A model generated the notes under the pieces. The model worked only from the letters and a program-made list of their open reading frames with translations, did no database searches and was not told the DNA's origin. 64,000 nt of DNA. It comes from Candidatus Centipeda massiliensis (GTDB taxonomy: Bacteria > Bacillota > Negativicutes > Selenomonadales > Selenomonadaceae). The first letter of the stretch is position 1. Each line of letters opens with the position of its first letter. Position numbers and translations under genes: made by a program. The DNA is taken from NCBI RefSeq assembly GCF_900290285.1, contig NZ_LT985754.1, forward strand, positions 334,299 through 398,298. Reading direction: 5' to 3'. This document shows, one piece after another, positions 25,435-36,160 of the stretch.

Positions 25435-25638
25435 ATGCCGTTTTCTTATAAACCATTGTGGAAATTGCTGATTGATAAAGAAATGAGCAAGAAAAGTCTT
25501 GGTGAATCTACGGGTATTTCAAAATCAACCCTAGATAAAATGTATCGCGGAGAAAATGTTTCCTTAGAGGTGATTGACCGCATCTGTCGTCACTTAAACT
25601 GCGATGTATCTGATGTTATCACTCATCGGAGGACGTGA
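25435..25638 (+). CDS. Small XRE-family regulator, probable R-M controller
   Basis: 67 residues: almost entirely one Cro/C1-type HTH (LIDKEMSKKSLGESTGISKSTLDKMYRGENVSLEVIDRICRHLNCDVSDVI). ATG 25435 after AAGGAGG. Its stop is 2 bp from the methyltransferase start, so the two are co-translated. The size, HTH, upstream dyad and downstream methyltransferase match a C protein that times expression of restriction enzyme and methylase. C proteins usually precede the nuclease gene; here it precedes the methylase, which makes direct control of the nuclease less certain. Confidence 0.78.
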   Translation: MPFSYKPLWKLLIDKEMSKKSLGESTGISKSTLDKMYRGENVSLEVIDRICRHLNCDVSDVITHRRT

Positions 25639-25640
25639 GC

Positions 25641-26591
25641 ATGGGCTATACATTGATTCATGCCGACTGCTTTGATTGGATGAAAGAACAGAAGCCGCAT
25701 AGTGTCACTGCGATTGTGACAGATCCTCCCTATGGAGTGAAGGAGTATTCATCTCAAGAGGTGGAAAAACAGCGTGCAGGAAGAGGCGGGCTTTGGCGTA
25801 TTCCTCCCTCGTTCGACGGACATATCAGGCAAGCAGTACCACGCTTCTCTGTGATCAATGACGATCCGAAAGAGCGGGAGAATGTCTATCAATTTTTCCA
25901 TCAATGGGCACAAGAGGCAGTTCGTATTTTAGTTCCCGGTGGGCATGTTTTGATCGCCTCGACCCCTTTGTTGTCCGATATATTGAGCAGGGCGATGAGA
26001 GATGGGGGATTTGAGCGTCGCGGAGAAATCATACGAACGGTTTCTACACTTCGCGGCGGTGATCGTCCCAAGGGGGCAGAACGGGAGTTTGCTGACCTGT
26101 CCGTAATCCCCAAGGGGCTGTGGGAGCCGTGGGGGGTCTACCGGAAGCCTCTCTCTGAACGAACCGTTGCTGAAAATCTGAAAAAGTGGGGGGCAGGTGC
26201 GTTGCGCCGCGAACATGTTGATGCTCCTGTTGTTGACTTGATCGAAAGCACCAAAACGCCGCAACTGGAACGGAAGATTGTCGCACATCCAAGTCTGAAG
26301 CCCCAAAAATTCCTTCGTAAACTGGTGTATTCATCCTTGCCGCTTGGATGTGGTGTGTTGTTTGACCCCTTTGCAGGGAGTGGGTCTACATTGGCGGCTG
26401 CGGAATATTTTGGATATGATTCGATTGGTACGGAGCGGGATCTCACATTCTATAACGATGCGCAGATGGCAATACCAAAGCTGGCAGGTCTTTATCCGGA
26501 ACAACTGGAGTTCAACCTGCAAAAGGTGAAAAAGACGGAATCGGAAGAAGGTCGGAGGACTTCTTTCGCCTGTGCCGTAGATGTGGTGTGA
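25641..26591 (+). CDS. Type II DNA methyltransferase (beta-class, N6-adenine or N4-cytosine)
   Basis: About 316 residues from ATG 25641 (GGAGG 8 bases upstream; a GTG at 25635 is too close to that site). Catalytic motif IV TDPPYGVKE lies near residue 28 and the AdoMet-binding motif I FDPFAGSGSTLAAAEYF near residue 240. This IV-before-I order defines the beta class. DPPY is more usual for adenine N6 enzymes. The middle ~150 residues would include the target-recognition domain. Its 3' end overlaps the convergent nuclease gene by 80 bp. Together they should form a restriction-modification pair; the recognition site is unknown. Confidence 0.9.
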   Translation: MGYTLIHADCFDWMKEQKPHSVTAIVTDPPYGVKEYSSQEVEKQRAGRGGLWRIPPSFDGHIRQAVPRFSVINDDPKERENVYQFFHQWAQEAVRILVPGGHVLIASTPLLSDILSRAMRDGGFERRGEIIRTVSTLRGGDRPKGAEREFADLSVIPKGLWEPWGVYRKPLSERTVAENLKKWGAGALRREHVDAPVVDLIESTKTPQLERKIVAHPSLKPQKFLRKLVYSSLPLGCGVLFDPFAGSGSTLAAAEYFGYDSIGTERDLTFYNDAQMAIPKLAGLYPEQLEFNLQKVKKTESEEGRRTSFACAVDVV

Positions 26592-27150
26592 TGTTTACAT
26601 ATTCCGGGTTCAGATAAACAGATCCATCCCGCAGCTTTGCTGTACCGATACTGTTTGTCATGTATGTTTCCGTGCGTTGTGAGTCATTTTTGTTTCGCTT
26701 GCTGCCACAGTATTTCCAGTCGCTGTTGGGATGTCCGAATCCGTTTAGTTCGGCAATCTCTACATATGTGAATTCAATGTCGCCAATGGGAAGTATATGA
26801 TAGCAGACAACAATATGCCATCCGCTGTGACCGTTGTGCCCTTCGCCGCCCTTCATAGGTTTGTTCGATGCTTTTACCTCCAGGCCTATGGGGACAGCTT
26901 TGTGCATCAGATCAGGATAACGCTGATCGTGATAGGGCTGGTAAATGCTCGCGTCGCCCAGTTTCTTTGTGAATACATTGGATACCACACCGCTGAAGTT
27001 ATTTGCCTGAATAATTTCGCTGAGATTGGTGCCTGCATTTTTGCGAATTGATGTAAAAAACGACTCTGTTTCGACAAGTGCCGTAAAAATATCATCGTTT
27101 GTTAAATCCTGCGGCAATGGGACTGTCCGCAGATAAGCAGGAGAAAGCAT
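26512..27150 (-). CDS. Probable type II restriction endonuclease
   Basis: 212 residues from ATG 27150 (GGAGTACACTT upstream). I recognise no named enzyme, but YPDLMHKAVPIGLEVKAS near residues 78-95 has the PD-x(10)-ExK spacing of a PD-(D/E)XK nuclease core. The gene also sits tail-to-tail with a methyltransferase. WHIVVCYHILP and FTYVEIAEL follow as beta strands of the fold. Its A/T content is higher than the neighbouring housekeeping genes, as is common for acquired R-M genes. The 80-bp overlap with the methylase 3' end means transcription interference is possible. Confidence 0.75.
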   Translation of the reverse strand: MLSPAYLRTVPLPQDLTNDDIFTALVETESFFTSIRKNAGTNLSEIIQANNFSGVVSNVFTKKLGDASIYQPYHDQRYPDLMHKAVPIGLEVKASNKPMKGGEGHNGHSGWHIVVCYHILPIGDIEFTYVEIAELNGFGHPNSDWKYCGSKRNKNDSQRTETYMTNSIGTAKLRDGSVYLNPEYVNITPHLRHRRKKSSDLLPIPSFSPFAG

Positions 27151-27184
27151 AAGTGTACTCCTTTATGAAAACTTTGGAGGGAAT

Positions 27185-27961
27185 ATGACGGATTACGAAA
27201 AGCTGAAAGAAATATATGATGAGATTGATCGTCTGATTGAGATGCGAGTAAGTTCCTCTACACCACGTTTTCGAGCTTGGAAAGTTAAGGCAAAAAGATT
27301 TCTTATAAAGCGATATGGGGAAGAGAGCTATGAGGTCAGGGAGTTTCAAAAAACAAGTTTTTCATTAGGCGCAGGATATTATGCCTCGGAAGAAGCTTTT
27401 ATCCAGGCTTGTAGAAACGGACTAGCTACAATGAAGGAAATTTTTGATATATACTTAAATGAGATCAGGGAAGGTTCAAAACAACAAACTGAAAGCAAGA
27501 AAGAAATAGGTGTACTGAAACGAGACTTTAGCCGTGTCTTTATCGTACATGGACACAATGGAGAATTAAAGGAAGGTGTTGCCAGACTGTTGGAGCAACA
27601 GGGGATTCAGCCCATTATCTTGCACGAGCAGGTCAATCGCGGTGCGACTATTATTGAAAAGATCGAATCCAACAGCGATGTGCAGGCGGCGGTGTGCCTG
27701 TTCACGGCAGATGATTATGGGCATAGCGCAACAGACCAGGAGAAACAGCCGAGAGCACGCCAAAATGTCGTGTTTGAAGCAGGATATTTTATGGGGAAAC
27801 TTGGCAGGGAGAACATCGTCATTATATCGGACAAGGGGGTAGAGTTGCCATCCGACTTGCAGGGAGTGGTCTATACAGATACGCAATTTTGGAAAATGGA
27901 ACTTTTGAAGGAATTAAAGGCGATTGGGTATAGCATTGACTTCAATAAGGCTATGTCATAG
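27185..27961 (+). CDS. TIR-like domain protein (predicted nucleotide-binding, PF10137-type)
   Basis: 258 residues; ATG 27185 after GGAGGG. Residues 1-~110 are helical and charged. Residues ~118-245 form a TIR-like domain: RVFIVHGHNGELKEGVARLLEQQGIQPIILHEQVNRGATIIEKIE, AAVCLFTADDYG, ARQNVVFEAGYFMGKLGRENIVII. The Glu in FEAGYF is the usual catalytic position for NAD cleavage in TIR enzymes. Related domains act as effectors in CBASS (Cap12) and Pycsar systems. No cyclase is beside it, so a trigger is not evident. It starts 34 bp from the divergent nuclease gene. Role in phage defence is inference from family and location. Confidence 0.82.
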   Translation: MTDYEKLKEIYDEIDRLIEMRVSSSTPRFRAWKVKAKRFLIKRYGEESYEVREFQKTSFSLGAGYYASEEAFIQACRNGLATMKEIFDIYLNEIREGSKQQTESKKEIGVLKRDFSRVFIVHGHNGELKEGVARLLEQQGIQPIILHEQVNRGATIIEKIESNSDVQAAVCLFTADDYGHSATDQEKQPRARQNVVFEAGYFMGKLGRENIVIISDKGVELPSDLQGVVYTDTQFWKMELLKELKAIGYSIDFNKAMS

Positions 27962-29252: not shown

Positions 29253-29334
29253 TTAATGCGACAGAAGTATGATAGACGGCGCACACGGAATATGCTATCA
29301 TGAGCGCATACACGCCACAGAAAGGAGGCGTCTA

Positions 29335-30366
29335 ATGAATCTTGCCAACTACCGTACGTCGATCATCCTCGCCGTGACCTTTACAATCCTGCTCTCGACG
29401 TTCTGGTTCTATCAGGACTTTGCATTCATCATCTTCCTCTCACTGCTCCTGCAGCTCCTCCTAAAGCCCGTCGTGGACTTCATGGAGGCGCGGCGTATGC
29501 CGCGCGCGGCCGCGTCGGCAATCGCCATCATCGCGTTCATCTTCGTGCTCGCCGCACTCGTGAGCATCATCTCGCGTTCCGTCCTCCCGTCCTTTCAGCG
29601 GTTCGTGGCGGAGCTGCCGACCATCGGACAGAGCATTCAGCAGCTTCCCCTTCTTTCGGACACCGACTTTATCAAAGATGAGTTTGTGAACATCCTTGAC
29701 CGTTTGCGCAGCGTCGGTGCGGAACTCGTGCGTGCGTCGCTCTCCTTCCTGCTCGTCGCGTTCGGGAAGGTGATGGACTTCGTCATTATCATCTTTGTAT
29801 CGTTCTATCTGCTGAAGGACGGCGCGGATATCAAACTCTGGCTGGCGGGACTCTTTCCGCATAACTCCCGTGCGCGCGTCCTCCGCCTCTTCGATACGCT
29901 CCTCATCGCACTGCGCGTCTATATATGCAGCCAGCTTGTTATGTGCTTTATCACAGGGGTGGTCGTGTTCGCCTACTTCAAACTGATGGGACTCCCGTAT
30001 GCCTCCGTCTTTGCGCTGCTCTCGGGGGTCAGCGAGTTCATCCCCGTGCTCGGACCCACCGTAGCCTCGGCGCTCGGCATCCTTATGACTGCCTCTGCGA
30101 TGCGTGAGCTCACCGTGCAGACTGCGCTCTTCTACGTTGCGCTCACGCAGGTCAACCACAACGTTGTCTATCCTGCACTCGTCGGCAAAAGCCTCCACCT
30201 TCACCCCGTCGCCGTCATCCTCGGCGTCGTCTTTGGCGGCGAACTGCTCGGCGCGGCGGGGATGTTCCTCGCCGTCCCCTTCATCGTCATCATCAAGATC
30301 GTCATCACCGACATCTACCGCGACCGGCAGGAGATGAAGGGGGAGGAACAGGCAGAAAATTCATAA
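29335..30366 (+). CDS. AI-2E/PerM family permease-like membrane protein
   Basis: 343 residues from ATG 29335 (AAAGGAGGCG upstream). Two N-terminal hairpin helices, a soluble segment (~residues 80-135), then five to six helices. Contains the family hallmarks: FVSFYLLKDG, a conserved FALLSGVSEFIPVLGPTVA and NHNVVYPALVGKSLHLHPVAVILGVVFGGELLGAAGMFLAVP. Family members include the proposed AI-2 exporter and sodium-proton antiporters, so the substrate is open. Followed by a terminator; single gene. Confidence 0.88.
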   Translation: MNLANYRTSIILAVTFTILLSTFWFYQDFAFIIFLSLLLQLLLKPVVDFMEARRMPRAAASAIAIIAFIFVLAALVSIISRSVLPSFQRFVAELPTIGQSIQQLPLLSDTDFIKDEFVNILDRLRSVGAELVRASLSFLLVAFGKVMDFVIIIFVSFYLLKDGADIKLWLAGLFPHNSRARVLRLFDTLLIALRVYICSQLVMCFITGVVVFAYFKLMGLPYASVFALLSGVSEFIPVLGPTVASALGILMTASAMRELTVQTALFYVALTQVNHNVVYPALVGKSLHLHPVAVILGVVFGGELLGAAGMFLAVPFIVIIKIVITDIYRDRQEMKGEEQAENS

Positions 30367-30374
30367 ACACAAAG

Positions 30375-30410
30375 AACCTCCTTTGCATAACGTCGTGTAA
30401 AGGAGGTTTT
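30375..30410 (+). terminator. Rho-independent terminator
   Basis: AACCTCCTTT / AAAGGAGGTTTT hairpin just after the permease gene. Confidence 0.8.
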
Positions 30411-30477
30411 GTTAAAATATGAAATATAGAAATGTGTAATTTACAATGAAAAATAAAATATGTTTTTGTAAAATATA

Positions 30478-30506
30478 TTGACATAAGGAAAAACATCTGC
30501 TATTAT
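30478..30506 (+). promoter_or_regulatory. Consensus promoter of the PIN/kinase/vWA/PP2C cassette
   Basis: TTGACA (30478-30483), exactly 17 bp, TATTAT (30501-30506), in an A/T-rich stretch 30 bp before the first start codon. Confidence 0.85.
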
Positions 30507-30535
30507 ACAAAAAACAGGACAGAAAGGAGATTACA

Positions 30536-31585
30536 ATGTTGGATAAAGACCAGAGGAATGTGATTGTCGAGAACTTCCAAAGTCTCCTGCGCCCCATCCG
30601 CAACATCATGGACTGCAGCATTGCAGAGATGGCGGAGGCGATCGGTGTCACACGTCAGACGATGAACAATCTCGAGACACGCAAGACGGGGATGTCACAG
30701 ACGCAGTACATCGCACTCGCGGCGTTTATCGACCACTACTTTCGTCAGAACGGGCGGCTGCTGCCTGCCGTTCAGACAATCATCGATCAGGAGGGGACAA
30801 AGAACGCTGCGGACTACGATACGTCGTTTCGCGACGGCTCTCTCATCGAGCGGTGGTTCGAGGGGATGCACGCGTGTGCGGAGGATATGGAGACGGCGGA
30901 CGATGACGGCTTTACCGAGGAGCTGGGGATCATCGCACGGCAGTATAGAATCTTCATGGATACGAACATCCTGATGACGGAGAACGCGGGGAATGTCGTC
31001 GACGATCTCGTGGATGCGCTGCGTACAGCAGAGCGGAGCGTGATCGTCCCGCTGCGTTTGGTGGAGGAGCTGCGCACGCAGCGGGGAAATCCTGCTGCAC
31101 AGACGGCGATCAAATATCTGAAGCAGATGCAGACGCAGGAGGTTTTGGACATTCGCGGCGAGGCGGGGGATCCTGATTTTGCCGATATTATTCTCTCAGT
31201 GTTTACACGTTTCCGCAGTGCCCACCGGCTCTGCCTCCTGACGAATAATCGAGAGCTCGCCCGGGAGGTACTGCGCTTGAATGAAACGGGGCTTGAGAAG
31301 GAGAACAATCCCATTGTTGTCGGCTGGGTTCGCGACGGCAGGCTGCACTCCTACGCGGAACAGCCTATTGCGGTCGAGTCGAAGGAGCAGGAGCTGCTTC
31401 TGGATACGAGCGGACTTGCGGGGTGGGAGGAGATGGAGGAGGAAGTCTCTAAGGATACATATGTGCCCGATGCGGAGGCAGTGAGGATGATTGAGCCCCC
31501 CTGTGCGCCTCCGGATACGTTATATGATACCAAGGCGCGGGCGCTGCCACACACAACAATCCCCAATGGATGGGGAGAGGTCTAG
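30536..31585 (+). CDS. HTH-PIN domain protein
   Basis: 349 residues; ATG 30536 after AAAGGAGATTAC. Residues ~20-75 are an XRE-like helix-turn-helix (IMDCSIAEMAEAIGVTRQTMNNLETRKTGMSQTQYIALAAFI). Residues ~139-260 are a PIN nuclease-like domain: RIFMDTNILM with the first Asp, VIVPLRLVEELRTQ with the Glu, AGDPDFADIILSVFTRFR with further Asp, and CLLTNNRELA. These acidic positions are those of Mg-dependent RNases. The C-terminal ~90 residues are acidic and unassigned. First gene of the cassette, 18 bp before the next. It may bind its own operator and cleave RNA, or sense DNA; this is inference. Confidence 0.82.
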   Translation: MLDKDQRNVIVENFQSLLRPIRNIMDCSIAEMAEAIGVTRQTMNNLETRKTGMSQTQYIALAAFIDHYFRQNGRLLPAVQTIIDQEGTKNAADYDTSFRDGSLIERWFEGMHACAEDMETADDDGFTEELGIIARQYRIFMDTNILMTENAGNVVDDLVDALRTAERSVIVPLRLVEELRTQRGNPAAQTAIKYLKQMQTQEVLDIRGEAGDPDFADIILSVFTRFRSAHRLCLLTNNRELAREVLRLNETGLEKENNPIVVGWVRDGRLHSYAEQPIAVESKEQELLLDTSGLAGWEEMEEEVSKDTYVPDAEAVRMIEPPCAPPDTLYDTKARALPHTTIPNGWGEV

Positions 31586-31603
31586 GAGAGAGGAGCATCT
31601 ACG

Positions 31604-33673
31604 ATGAAGGACGGACCCGTTGGCTATCTCGAAGCCTATGTGAAGAAGTACAAGATTTTCATTGATACCTGCAGCTTGCTCTCGGGCGGTGCGGATCAGT
31701 TCTGGCAGAAGATCGTCCCGATTCTCGAGCGGACGGGGAAGAGCGTCATCGTTCCCAAGAGTGTCTATGACGAACTCGAGAAACTTGCTGATCCCAACTA
31801 CATGCCGAAAACAAAGAAGAAGGAGACGGGAATCGAGAAAAAGGCAGAGCACGCACGCCGCACAGTGGTCAATTTGCAAAAGAGAAATCTTGTTGCGGTC
31901 GTTGGCGATCCAAACGATGATAAACTTGCTGATAATGTCCTGCTGAGCATACTCACGCGTTTTCGTCTCACCTATGATATGCTGCTGATCACGCAGGATT
32001 ACAAGCTTGCTGCCAGAGCACTTCCCATTGGTAAGGACAGTGATGCAGTACGCGGGGTCAAGACGATCCGCGTGAAGCGCCTTGATGGCAGCGGCAGTCT
32101 GCAAGATGTCTTTGTCGGGGGCGCCCAAGGCTGCGGAAAACCTCCTGTGCCAAGTAATGCCCCCGAGACCGAGCTTGACGAAGAGGAAGCGCGCTTTGCG
32201 ACGGTGACGACGGTCACGGATGTGCCGGATACGGTCATCCCTGTCTCGTCGATCCCAACAGCGGGAGACGAGGTGATGATACGCCGTGCGGGGCAGAGCG
32301 GCACATTGCGGCTCGGGACACAGATCGGCGCCGGCGGCGAGGGCATCGCCTATCGGACGAACAAGTCCGGCATCATTGCGAAGATCTATAAGCGGGACAA
32401 GATCACGCGCCGCAAATACGAGAAGCTGCGCCTTATGCTCACACGGGAGATCGACTGCGATGGCGTCTGCTTCCCGATGGCGATGATCTACAATGCACAG
32501 GGCGAGTTCGTCGGCTATCTGATGAAGGAGGCTGCGGGCAAGGAGCTGCAGAAACGCTTTTTTGTCCCGAAGCCTGTCATTCTGAAGAACTTCCCGCAGT
32601 GGACAAAGGTGGACACGGTCCAGCTCTGCATCACGATCCTCGAAAAGCTGAAGTACCTGCATGACCGCAATGTGATCCTCGGTGATATCAACCCTCTTAA
32701 CATTCTTTTTGAGTCTCCGACGAAGGTCTACTTCGTGGATACGGACAGCTATCAGGTGGAGGGCTTCCCGTGCCCCGTCTGCACCGTCCCCTTCACTGCG
32801 CCGGAGATTCAGAAGAATAACCCCGTACTGCGCACGATTGAGCACGAGCGCTTCGCCGTGGCGACCCTCCTTTTTATGATTATGCTGCCCGGAAGACAGC
32901 CATACTCCATGCAGGGGGGCGAGGGGGTGCAGGAGAATATCATCAAGGGGGACTTCTCCTACCCACTTGGAGACAAGAAGAACGGAAAGGTGCCGCCGGG
33001 CTCGTGGCGGTACTGTTGGAGTCATCTCCCGTACGAACTGAAGCAGGCATTCTACGAGACGTTCTGCCGTGGGGAGGCGCACTACGGCGGCCGCAGCCGT
33101 TACACCACAGGGGAGTGGCTGCAGATGTTTCGCCGATACCACTACCTCCTCACGAGCGGTAGAATGGCGGAGCAGGATGAGGAGTCCCTGCTGCTCTTTC
33201 CGACGCGGTTCAAAAGGCAGTTGGGCAGGACTTATGCGAAATGCAAGCTTTGCGGACGGGAGGATGACGAGGAGCGTCTGAAGGAGGGGATCTGCCCAAC
33301 CTGTCTGCGACAGGGTGAGATTTACCGTTGCAATACCTGCGGTGCGGAGATTCGCTATACGAACTACGATAAGTACGTCAAGCACTCGAAGAAGCATATG
33401 AGCTGTAGGACCTGCTACGAGAAGCGAAACATGGTCGCTGAGCGAAGGACGTGCAGCATCTGCGGTGAATCCTTCGGCATCACCAACGGGGAGAAGGAGT
33501 TCTACGCGAAGAAGAGCTTCTCCCTCCCTAGAACCTGCAAGAACTGCCGCGGTGGCGGGCATCATGCCCATACCCTTACGTCAAGCCCGACGCGCGTATG
33601 TGTTCCGCAGAGGGAGAGCGAGAGCAGGAATGCATCCTTCCTTGAGATCGTTCTCAAGAGCCTTTTCGGCTGA
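31604..33673 (+). CDS. PIN - protein kinase - zinc ribbon fusion
   Basis: 689 residues, a three-part protein. Residues ~10-135: PIN domain (KIFIDTCSLLSGG, VIVPKSVYDELEKL, PNDDKLADNVLLSILTRFR, LLITQDYKLA). Residues ~225-480: kinase-like domain with glycine loop IGAGGEGIAYR, lysine in IIAKIYKRD, catalytic-loop equivalent LGDINPLNILF (GDIN instead of HRD) and metal-binding VDTDSYQ instead of DFG. Residues ~545-655: several CxxC pairs (CKLCG, CPTC, CNTCG, CRTC, CSICG, CKNC), consistent with three zinc ribbons. Kinases of this GDINPxN type partner vWA and PP2C proteins in TerY-P-like loci. All key acidic residues seem present, so an active kinase is plausible. The fusion of a PIN domain to it is unusual. 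Confidence 0.85.
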   Translation: MKDGPVGYLEAYVKKYKIFIDTCSLLSGGADQFWQKIVPILERTGKSVIVPKSVYDELEKLADPNYMPKTKKKETGIEKKAEHARRTVVNLQKRNLVAVVGDPNDDKLADNVLLSILTRFRLTYDMLLITQDYKLAARALPIGKDSDAVRGVKTIRVKRLDGSGSLQDVFVGGAQGCGKPPVPSNAPETELDEEEARFATVTTVTDVPDTVIPVSSIPTAGDEVMIRRAGQSGTLRLGTQIGAGGEGIAYRTNKSGIIAKIYKRDKITRRKYEKLRLMLTREIDCDGVCFPMAMIYNAQGEFVGYLMKEAAGKELQKRFFVPKPVILKNFPQWTKVDTVQLCITILEKLKYLHDRNVILGDINPLNILFESPTKVYFVDTDSYQVEGFPCPVCTVPFTAPEIQKNNPVLRTIEHERFAVATLLFMIMLPGRQPYSMQGGEGVQENIIKGDFSYPLGDKKNGKVPPGSWRYCWSHLPYELKQAFYETFCRGEAHYGGRSRYTTGEWLQMFRRYHYLLTSGRMAEQDEESLLLFPTRFKRQLGRTYAKCKLCGREDDEERLKEGICPTCLRQGEIYRCNTCGAEIRYTNYDKYVKHSKKHMSCRTCYEKRNMVAERRTCSICGESFGITNGEKEFYAKKSFSLPRTCKNCRGGGHHAHTLTSSPTRVCVPQRESESRNASFLEIVLKSLFG

Positions 33674-33713
33674 TCATTATGGATAAGAGATTTTGCAAAG
33701 GAGTAGTGTCATC

Positions 33714-34478
33714 ATGAACGATTTGCTGAGACAACAGGATCTGGTCAACAATCCCTCGACGCGTGTTCCCATCTGCCTCTGCCTCGATGTCAGTGGCTCG
33801 ATGAACCGCATTGTCGGCGGCGAGACACGGGATACGGGGCGCACTGTCTTTCGTGACGGGCAGCAGTGGAATGTAGTCGAGGGCGGTGTCACTGCTCTGA
33901 ACGAACTGGTCGCGGGGGTGCGCAGCTTCTATGCGGCACTGAATGCGGACGAGGTCGCACGCTACTCTGCCGAAATCTGCGTTGTTACCTTTGGGGGCAG
34001 CTCCGCGCGTCTCGTCAAGGACTTCGCAAGCCTCGATCTGCAGCCGGACTTTCCTGACCTCACGGCGGACGGTGAGACTCCGATGGGCGAGGGCGTCAAC
34101 CTCGCACTCGACCGCCTTGAGACGCGCAAGCAGGAATACAAGGATGCGGGGGTTGACTACTTCCAGCCGTGGCTCGTCCTTATGACGGACGGCTCACCGA
34201 ACGGCAGCCCCGCAGAGTTCCAGCGTGCCGTTTCCCGCACCCGGGAACTGGACGGCAATCGCAAGCTATCCGTATTCCCCATTGGCATCGGACCGGAGGC
34301 GGATATGGTGAATCTCGGCGCATTCTCGCAGCGCCGCACGCCACTTAAGCTCAAGGGGATGAACTTCGGGGCATTTTTCGAGTGGCTCAGCCAGAGTGTT
34401 GCGCATACCTCGCAGTCCATGCCGGGCGAGGAGATCAAGCTGGATGTCGAGAAAATCAAGGGCTGGGCGGAGCTGTGA
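33714..34478 (+). CDS. TerY-like von Willebrand factor A domain protein
   Basis: 254 residues from ATG 33714 (AAAGGAGTAG upstream). MIDAS motif DVSGSM near residue 24-29, the Thr site at GETPMGEGV, and LMTDGSPNG give a complete metal-ion adhesion site. Overall it matches the cytoplasmic TerY/YegL group (RVPICLCLDVSGSMN...NELVAGVRSFYAALNADE...DLTADGETPMGEGVNLALDRLETRKQEYK). No signal peptide. In TerY-P triads this vWA is thought to scaffold the kinase and phosphatase. Third gene of the cassette. Confidence 0.9.
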   Translation: MNDLLRQQDLVNNPSTRVPICLCLDVSGSMNRIVGGETRDTGRTVFRDGQQWNVVEGGVTALNELVAGVRSFYAALNADEVARYSAEICVVTFGGSSARLVKDFASLDLQPDFPDLTADGETPMGEGVNLALDRLETRKQEYKDAGVDYFQPWLVLMTDGSPNGSPAEFQRAVSRTRELDGNRKLSVFPIGIGPEADMVNLGAFSQRRTPLKLKGMNFGAFFEWLSQSVAHTSQSMPGEEIKLDVEKIKGWAEL

Positions 34479-34505
34479 TGACTTCCGAGGAACGAAGGAG
34501 TATGT

Positions 34506-35477
34506 ATGACGTGGAAATCCATTGGCTGCGCCGTGCAGGGGAGGGGGCATAAAAAGTCCGACGTTCCCTGCCAGGACGTAGTACATTATGACGCGGTGAG
34601 CGGCGTTCATGTGATTGCCCTCTCCGACGGCGCAGGCTCGGCGCGGCTCTCCCTCTATGGGGCGGATGCAGCTGTGTGCAGCGTGGGATCCCTCCTTGCG
34701 GAGGAGTTTCGCGCCTTTATCGGAAACAGCAACGGCGTTGCTGTCAAGCAGCACATCCTAAATACAGTTCTCGCAGCACTGCGCGCAAAGGCGGATGAGC
34801 TCGGGTGTGAGATGCATGATCTTGCTGCAACCCTCCTCGCTGTCGCCGCGGACGATGAAAACTTTCTCGCGGTACATATCGGGGATGGGGTCATCGGCTG
34901 CTACGGTATGGATGGGCTGAAAACACTCTCTGCACCGGATAACGGGGAATTTGCGAATGCGACTACCTTTGTGACCTCGCGGGATGCGCTACAGCGTATG
35001 CGCATCTACAAGGGGAGCGCGGCGCGCCTTTCGGGGTTCGTCCTTATGTCCGATGGGACGGAGCAGAGTCTCTATCACAAGCGCAATCGCGTGCTCGCAC
35101 CTGCTGTGATCCGCCTCATGCACCGCACCTGCCTCATCGCGCACGATGTCCTCCTTCTGCAGCTTGTGGCTGCACTTGAGAATGTCATTGCAATGCAGAC
35201 ACAGGACGATTGCAGCATTGCCCTCATGGCGCGCTGTTCGCACGCACTGCCCCCGATCAGGGCGCTGTCTCCGACGCAGCGGCGGGAGGTCTTCGGCGGC
35301 TTTTCTCTGCCGCTTGCCGTCCCTCTGCGCATTTGCCGAAAGCTAGGGCTGCGCCTTGCACCGTGTCAGATCATGCGCGCCATGCGTGGGAATACCACAC
35401 TGCGGCAGAAGGATGTGCAACGGTTCGTGAAGACCGCTGCTATGACGCGAAAAAAGGAGCGTGATCGGATTCTGTAA
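34506..35477 (+). CDS. PP2C-like serine/threonine phosphatase
   Basis: 323 residues. MTWKSIGCAVQGRGHKKSDVPCQDVVHY, ALSDGAGSA (metal-binding Asp-Gly), HIGDGVIGCY and LMSDGTEQSL match the PP2C motifs, with DDCSIALM near residue 236 as the last acidic motif. ATG 34506 after GAAGGAG. The C-terminal ~75 residues are basic. Expected to reverse the phosphorylation made by the kinase at 31604; both are in one operon with the vWA protein between them. Confidence 0.88.
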   Translation: MTWKSIGCAVQGRGHKKSDVPCQDVVHYDAVSGVHVIALSDGAGSARLSLYGADAAVCSVGSLLAEEFRAFIGNSNGVAVKQHILNTVLAALRAKADELGCEMHDLAATLLAVAADDENFLAVHIGDGVIGCYGMDGLKTLSAPDNGEFANATTFVTSRDALQRMRIYKGSAARLSGFVLMSDGTEQSLYHKRNRVLAPAVIRLMHRTCLIAHDVLLLQLVAALENVIAMQTQDDCSIALMARCSHALPPIRALSPTQRREVFGGFSLPLAVPLRICRKLGLRLAPCQIMRAMRGNTTLRQKDVQRFVKTAAMTRKKERDRIL

Positions 35478-35537
35478 ATCCTGTGGAATCCATGACCGGA
35501 AAATATAACCCTTGTTGGGAGCATTGCAGACACATAA

Positions 35538-35567
35538 AAACCGCCGCACCAATCGGTACGGCGGTTT
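35538..35567. terminator. Bidirectional terminator
   Basis: AAACCGCCG...CGGCGGTTT hairpin (inner CACCAATCGGTA), between the PP2C gene and the convergent dps. Confidence 0.82.
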
Positions 35568-35605
35568 CGTGTATATGGGAAGTAAGGAAGAATGGGGGAA
35601 GGAAT

Positions 35606-36058
35606 TTACGCGAGCATGGAGCGGAGGAACCAGATCTGCTTTGCGTAGTTGGTGACGTGATCCTCCATGAGGTTCGCAACGCCGAAGCAGTCATGTGCAT
35701 CGGCAGCCTTGCGGATCTCGAGCGCCTGATTCTGGAGGAGTTCGAGGTCGGCGAGTACGATCTCAAGCACCTTCTTCTGGTCAATCTTCTCGTCCGGGAG
35801 CTCCTTGATCGTTGCGATTTCCAGGTAGCCTTTGAGGCTCGCGACCGGCTGTGCATCTGCCATCTTGAGGAGCTCCGCCGTCTCGTCGAGCACATCCGCG
35901 AAGGAATCATAGAGAGACTCAAGGTACTCGTGTACCGCCTTGAACTGCGAGCCGACGACGTTCCAGTGGAGGTTGTGCAGCTTGATGTAGCTGACGCCGA
36001 TGTTGGCGATGTAGCCGTTGATTGCATTTGTGAGTTCAGACATATTCGTGTGTTTCAT
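35606..36058 (-). CDS. dps: Dps/ferritin-like DNA-protection protein
   Basis: 150 residues from ATG 36058 (GAAAGGGGATT upstream). Four-helix ferritin fold; the inter-subunit ferroxidase motif is in KLHNLHWNVVGSQFKAVHEYLESLYDSFADVLDETAELL (His, His, Asp and Glu ligands), and a C-terminal helix carries NYAKQIWFLRSMLA. Dps dodecamers oxidise and store iron and protect DNA from peroxide. Single gene with a near-perfect promoter. Confidence 0.92.
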   Translation of the reverse strand: MKHTNMSELTNAINGYIANIGVSYIKLHNLHWNVVGSQFKAVHEYLESLYDSFADVLDETAELLKMADAQPVASLKGYLEIATIKELPDEKIDQKKVLEIVLADLELLQNQALEIRKAADAHDCFGVANLMEDHVTNYAKQIWFLRSMLA

Positions 36059-36131
36059 AGTAGTAAATCCCCTTTCGTTTTGTTGTTCCGCAGATGCCGT
36101 GGCATCTGTTTCATATCTCATTACGTGTGTT

Positions 36132-36160
36132 ATTATATCCCACCGTGTTTTATTTGTCAA
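36132..36160 (-). promoter_or_regulatory. Consensus promoter of dps
   Basis: On the minus strand TTGACA (36160-36155), 17 bp, TATAAT (36137-36132). Just upstream CTATTTAATAATAACTATT is an A/T-rich imperfect dyad overlapping the -35 region, a plausible PerR- or Fur-type operator; that regulator is inferred, not shown. Confidence 0.88.

Follow-up and report, generated by a model that had tools for sequence, protein, structure and literature searches.

The locus described here raises the question of whether a kinase, a phosphatase and a vWA protein encoded beside two PIN-fold proteins form a variant of the TerY-P triad, and what such an assembly would do. In the window, meaning the whole 64,000-nucleotide stretch of DNA analyzed, four ORFs follow one another on the plus strand (30536-35477) and encode an HTH-PIN protein, a PIN-kinase-zinc ribbon fusion, a vWA protein and a PP2C phosphatase, with intergenic gaps of 18, 40 and 27 nt. 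An extended -10 sigma-70 promoter is predicted upstream of them (30478..30506, plus strand; TTGACA-17-TATTAT with TG ahead of the -10, 11/12), which tops five matches where 2.3 were expected by chance; the single promoter and tight spacing proposed in an initial annotation are thus borne out. Immediately 5' of the -35 box and touching it lies an imperfect inverted repeat (AATATGTTTT-TGT-AAAATATATT, 30457..30479, no strand assigned). This repeat is a possible, if weak, candidate for an operator of the HTH protein, as it is AT-rich and chance could explain it.

The second gene (31604..33673, plus strand, 689 aa) is, by ORF, domain and model evidence, a fusion of a predicted PIN RNase domain (31649..32083), a Ser/Thr-type kinase domain (32270..33214) and a Cys-rich zinc ribbon/treble-clef tail (33239..33556), all on the plus strand. 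Domain searches of the protein itself returned Pkinase at 2e-7 and zf_Tbcl at 8.5e-5, just under the cut-off; zf_Tbcl was found in 37 of 65 homologues. The kinase carries a GAGGEG loop, K260, D361, N366 and D379-T-D381, with K260, D361 and D381 conserved in 77/77, 73/77 and 77/77 sequences, respectively, and its catalytic loop reads G-D-I-N-P-L-N, the GDINPxN motif that had been noted initially. PIN matches were sub-threshold for the window proteins alone, yet among 65 kinase homologues 38 have a PIN_4 match, the best at 7e-7. The AlphaFold model of the fusion has a mean pLDDT of 89.5; rows from plasmid records were left out of both structure predictions made in this work. Since Foldseek and VIA searches with the 689-aa model gave kinases only among the matches listed, and no PIN, a profile of the domain was used to test for the PIN fold. 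Against the PDB, the profile retrieved MJ1533 (E 2e-4), SMG6 (4e-3) and Utp24 (7e-3). The domain has a complete acidic tetrad, namely D21 (kept in 78/78 kinase-linked PINs), E57 (76/78), D110 (75/78) and D132 (76/78), plus T130. From these sequences, we infer RNase activity for the kinase-linked PIN. Pfam IF2_N precedes the PIN in five alignment members as well as the separate PIN of L106:11970-12764. N-terminal extensions before the PIN occur in L032, L053, L060, L062, L072, L073 and L124, those lacking a Pfam IF2_N match appearing similar by eye. The presence of IF2_N in some relatives hints at a translation-linked target.

The third and fourth genes encode a vWA protein (33714..34478, plus strand, 254 aa, ATG start; VWA 7e-4) and a PP2C phosphatase (34506..35477, plus strand, 323 aa; PP2C_2 3e-42). 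The vWA protein has an intact MIDAS motif (DVSGS, T122, D159), whose residues are kept in 82-88 of 88 homologues, and the acidic, metal-binding residues of the phosphatase (D24, D41, D127, D183, D235) are conserved in 77-79 of 79.

The first gene (30536..31585, plus strand, 349 aa) was assigned by ORF, domain and model comparison as an Xre/Cro-type HTH fused to a PIN-fold domain. The HTH (residues about 18-66, 30587..30733, plus strand) matches HTH_3 weakly in the window protein itself; HTH_3 was found in 14 of 19 homologues and the C.BclI/CylR2 profiles match. The AlphaFold model has a mean pLDDT of 78, most of the HTH and PIN regions exceeding 90. Its PIN (residues 134-266, 30935..31333, plus strand) superimposes in VIA on that of Utp24 with Z 11.7 (121 residues, rmsd 2.9) and on that of SMG6 with Z 9.0 (120 residues, rmsd 3.3), both of which are RNA-processing PINs. 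A quick tree placed the HTH-linked PINs in a single group (support 0.81), and an hhalign comparison (E 4e-32) identifies them as paralogues of the kinase-linked PIN. Among 21 of them, however, the acidic site is degraded: the first D is kept in 19/21, the E in 5/21, the third D in 8/21 (one column off) and the fourth D in 8/21. The window protein is one of the better-kept members, with D142, E177/E178 and D217 present and N238 replacing the fourth Asp, and its PIN is likely, though not certainly, inactive. As the site is eroded across the family, gene 1 is probably not a second nuclease; two active PIN nucleases were discarded as unlikely on this ground, and the HTH-PIN protein is probably a regulatory pseudo-nuclease. 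The initial annotation had spoken of two PIN nuclease-like proteins and had named PIN regions lacking the acidic site as one finding that would overturn it. The PIN folds are supported and the kinase-linked tetrad is intact in 75-78 of 78 sequences, whereas the two are probably not equivalent as nucleases.

Relatives were sought with a kinase alignment-based scan of 84,980 GTDB species genomes, in which the best 80 matches gave 79 loci, a sample rather than a census; a single-protein kinase query against genome contigs had found no match. Among these matches, the loci fall into at least nine phyla (Bacillota, Actinomycetota, Pseudomonadota, Campylobacterota, Spirochaetota, Planctomycetota, Fibrobacterota, Saccharimonadota and Myxococcota). 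One further copy, from Fusobacteriota, came from a plasmid collection, in a Fusobacterium record that is labelled plasmid yet is 2.1 Mb long. In 74 of the 79 loci listed, the kinase has genes for both vWA and PP2C no more than 5 kb away. The five exceptions comprise three kinases near a contig end (L058, L086, L105), one rearranged locus (L082) and L069, which was scored on a partial upstream kinase and has the full cassette. Because loci were found by kinase motifs, this high rate is a property of the kinase family. Conserved co-occurrence across phyla, on which the annotation had staked its proposal of a cassette, was thereby confirmed. The PIN is fused to the kinase in 62 of the 79 listed loci and fused or nearby in 71, and the HTH-PIN gene is an optional add-on present in 15. 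In Slackia, Adlercreutzia and Fibrobacter, a separate PIN gene sits just 5' of a PIN-less kinase; two Campylobacter loci resemble this layout, although one is fragmented and frameshifts may account for it. That several lineages encode the PIN next to the kinase as a gene of its own suggests that the two function as a unit. Some loci are more elaborate. In four Bacillaceae loci (L088, L092, L093, L110), the first cassette is followed by a second, divergent PIN-kinase and vWA unit, and a gene without Pfam match and a DnaJ-TPR protein also lie 3' of the first cassette. An island at L106 473-12767 contains several kinases, two PP2C genes, several vWA genes, a PIN1-type gene and the separate PIN.

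The initial comparison of kinase, vWA and PP2C with the TerY-P triad is supported by the window ORFs and by the same 74 listed loci. TerY-P triads, for which Anantharaman et al. (2012) is reportedly the founding paper, share with the window cassette a vWA protein, a PP2C phosphatase and a Ser/Thr kinase whose C-terminus bears a zinc ribbon or OB fold, a trait that gene 2 displays in its zinc ribbon form, and they are likewise accessory and linked to nuclease and defence genes. The window cassette differs in the intact N-terminal PIN on its kinase, the optional HTH-PIN, the order kinase>vWA>PP2C and a separate kinase clade. In the classical triads (YegL-PphC-YegI plus six from plasmids), the order is vWA>PP2C>kinase and no convincing PIN is present, and their seven kinases group outside the large clade that holds the window PIN-kinase (support 95/86; long branches advise caution). 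The cassette thus has neither the classical order nor a kinase of the classical clade, which is a feature of its branch; the published TerY-P definition specifies neither trait. The PADLOC TerY model did not match the window vWA protein at E<=0.01, and PDLC02224 matched the Photobacterium and YegL vWAs only at 0.002-0.01. Within the PIN-kinase clade, the sequences indicate that the PIN was lost or split off several times: kinases from L103, L107, L115 and L120 have no detectable PIN, and L118 and L121 were scored PIN-less with an N-terminus that looks PIN-like by eye. Directly 5' of the PIN-less kinase in two Treponema loci (L115 7053-8375, L120 7701-8981) lies an unknown protein of ~430 aa, perhaps a replacement effector.

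Several observations bear on mobility. Carriage of the PIN-kinase is patchy, at 11 of 151 genomes of the family, 6 of 398 of the phylum and 2 of 14 of the genus, and plasmid copies were found in Lysinibacillus and Paenarthrobacter, the latter with a separate HTH gene followed by PIN-kinase, vWA and PP2C. The same genome has a second full HTH-PIN/PIN-kinase/vWA/PP2C cassette (L035 5841-10943), which lies ~46 kb upstream from that in the window and is also present in sister species G107. With 43% identity, the two are distant relatives, which argues for separate acquisitions. The window copy lies between an AI-2E transporter gene and dps, which in three sister genomes are separated by a 79-96 bp gap, the empty site. 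Elsewhere in the genus, this junction (window 29332-36160; L157-L167) is a variable insertion site, occupied by polysaccharide genes, by an MFS transporter or, in the case of G120, by a set with a kinase and an SF1 helicase. The cargo in sister species is varied, which makes the junction a variable site and not purely a defence hotspot. The four genes of the G120 set (L163 1510-8521), which may be another defence system, encode an SF1 helicase (AAA_11/AAA_12), a Ser/Thr kinase and a pair of unknown proteins. A GC hairpin at 35538..35566 (no strand assigned), previously read as the terminator enclosing the cassette, also occurs in cassette-free sister species at the empty sites. This stem-loop is the site's ancestral terminator between the two genes, which dps on the opposite strand shares. 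The cassette was thus inserted on its upstream side, and the hairpin was rejected as the cassette's own terminator. A search of viral contigs found no relative and one of INPHARED gave distant, partial kinase or vWA matches only; carriage by a prophage was ruled out on the absence of viral-contig relatives and on the neighbors, AI-2E transporter and dps.

Upstream in the window lie genes for a type II methyltransferase, an REase-like product and a TIR protein, the last of which matches PDC-S35 (PADLOC). The stretch with these genes (25635-27961) has a GC content of 0.42-0.50, compared with about 0.62 before it. Counting models rather than proteins, PADLOC matches at 1e-10 numbered 199 in 140 cassette neighbors and 45 in 139 control proteins, the control being one small set in which most matches listed are models of one kinase family. 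The neighbor matches include Cas6, CARF-HEPN, PsyrT, DpdF and type I and III R-M. This excess of defence-gene models in the flanks is modest and suggestive only. In P. aeruginosa, TerY-P confers protection from phage and most cells survive (PMC10889362); it also acts on T7-like phages (PMC7699616). Further accounts of an anti-phage role are on record (Gao et al. 2020; PMC11090510). From this precedent, together with the patchy, mobile distribution and the modest flank excess of defence-gene models, we infer a defence role.

At the level of sequence, then, the kinase, vWA MIDAS, PP2C and PIN sites are intact, and the genes form one predicted operon that is conserved across phyla and occupies a variable chromosomal site. 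We consider it reasonably likely that the locus represents a distinct TerY-P branch that is armed with a PIN RNase and moves horizontally as a cassette, probably acting as an anti-phage or stress switch in which phosphorylation gates RNA cleavage. Infection or stress would be sensed by the kinase, or by its zinc tail or vWA partner, and the balance between kinase and PP2C would determine how far the complex is phosphorylated. The vWA protein would be a peptide-binding partner that binds or scaffolds a client. The switch would free the fused PIN to cleave mRNA, tRNA or rRNA, halting phage growth or the cell. Gene 1 would act as an optional regulator, its HTH repressing the operon at the level of transcription and its eroded PIN probably pairing with the active one, whether in the manner of an antitoxin or as an activator. 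In favor of this reading are the recurrence and the gene order of the cassette across the 79 listed, independent loci, and an acidic tetrad that persists in the kinase-linked PIN while the HTH-linked one decays. Counting against this reading are the PIN-less clade members, the stress and tellurite contexts in which classical triads also act, the non-match of the PADLOC TerY model and the modest size of the flank excess.

A rather unlikely alternative is a housekeeping or stress-signalling triad comparable to YegI-PphC-YegL of E. coli. Its PIN would bind RNA or have a regulatory part in the quality control of mRNA or ribosomes, with no anti-phage role. The E. coli operon, which is ordinarily chromosomal and which we do not know as a defence system, comprises the same three protein classes, to which the cassette proteins are homologous; it differs in lacking a PIN, in gene order and in having a kinase of the classical group. 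The proximity of the PIN to RNA-processing PINs (Utp24, SMG6) fits this alternative, and the IF2_N fusions and DnaJ/HSP70 neighbors hint at translation or protein quality control. However, the very patchy distribution, plasmid copies, variable site and two distant copies in this genome are rare for housekeeping genes.

An addiction module of the toxin-antitoxin type, with the PIN-kinase as toxin, the HTH-PIN as antitoxin and autorepressor, and vWA and PP2C tuning them, appears improbable. The HTH does resemble those of antitoxins and C proteins (HipB, HigA, C.BclI), gene 1 comes first in the operon with a PIN paralogous to the active one, and the cassette is mobile. Yet 64 of the 79 loci listed lack the HTH-PIN, which ruled it out as an obligatory antitoxin, though another small antitoxin may exist, and four enzymatic or sensor parts exceed the needs of a toxin-antitoxin pair. 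That the cassette is a classical TerY-P switch, with phosphorylation as the effector and a PIN that senses phage transcripts by binding without cleavage, is highly improbable: the four PIN-undetected clade kinases speak for it, but catalytic positions kept as widely as those of the tetrad go beyond what binding alone needs.

For the favored reading of an RNase-armed TerY-P branch, the nearest parallels are partial. CoCoNuT types II and III-A (PMC11090510) likewise place a TerY-P triad beside predicted RNA-targeting nucleases, but these are HEPN/McrC-linked with no PIN, and PINs are nowhere mentioned in that paper. PIN RNases are essential in two validated, non-TerY-P phage defence systems that are not simple toxin-antitoxin pairs, DS-3 and DS-5, which, in the parts of the DefensePredictor report available to us (PMC13092281), differ from the cassette in having no kinase, PP2C or vWA. 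The eukaryotic proteins IRE1 and RNase L (PMC3710099) offer a functional analogy only, being stress or antiviral switches built on a kinase-RNase fusion; their RNase is C-terminal, of the KEN/HEPN type and not homologous, and they have no PP2C/vWA operon. Literature searches, whose scope did not extend to the founding TerY-P paper, found no description of a PIN-kinase triad, so that priority is provisional.

The PADLOC TerY model misses the window cassette, though the family spans many phyla. Tentatively, and with somewhat less confidence than we would need to assert it, the family may represent a widespread, unnamed immune or stress class in which a kinase-RNase (PIN) fusion is restrained by a phosphatase, a vWA protein and, in some lineages, a dead PIN paralogue, a counterpart of IRE1/RNase L in design with phosphorylation directly gating RNA cleavage. 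TerY-P triads combine kinase, phosphatase and vWA with no evident effector, and the PIN branch places a probable effector on the kinase polypeptide itself. The link between phosphorylation and RNA cleavage thereby becomes directly testable, in one protein and with two point mutants.
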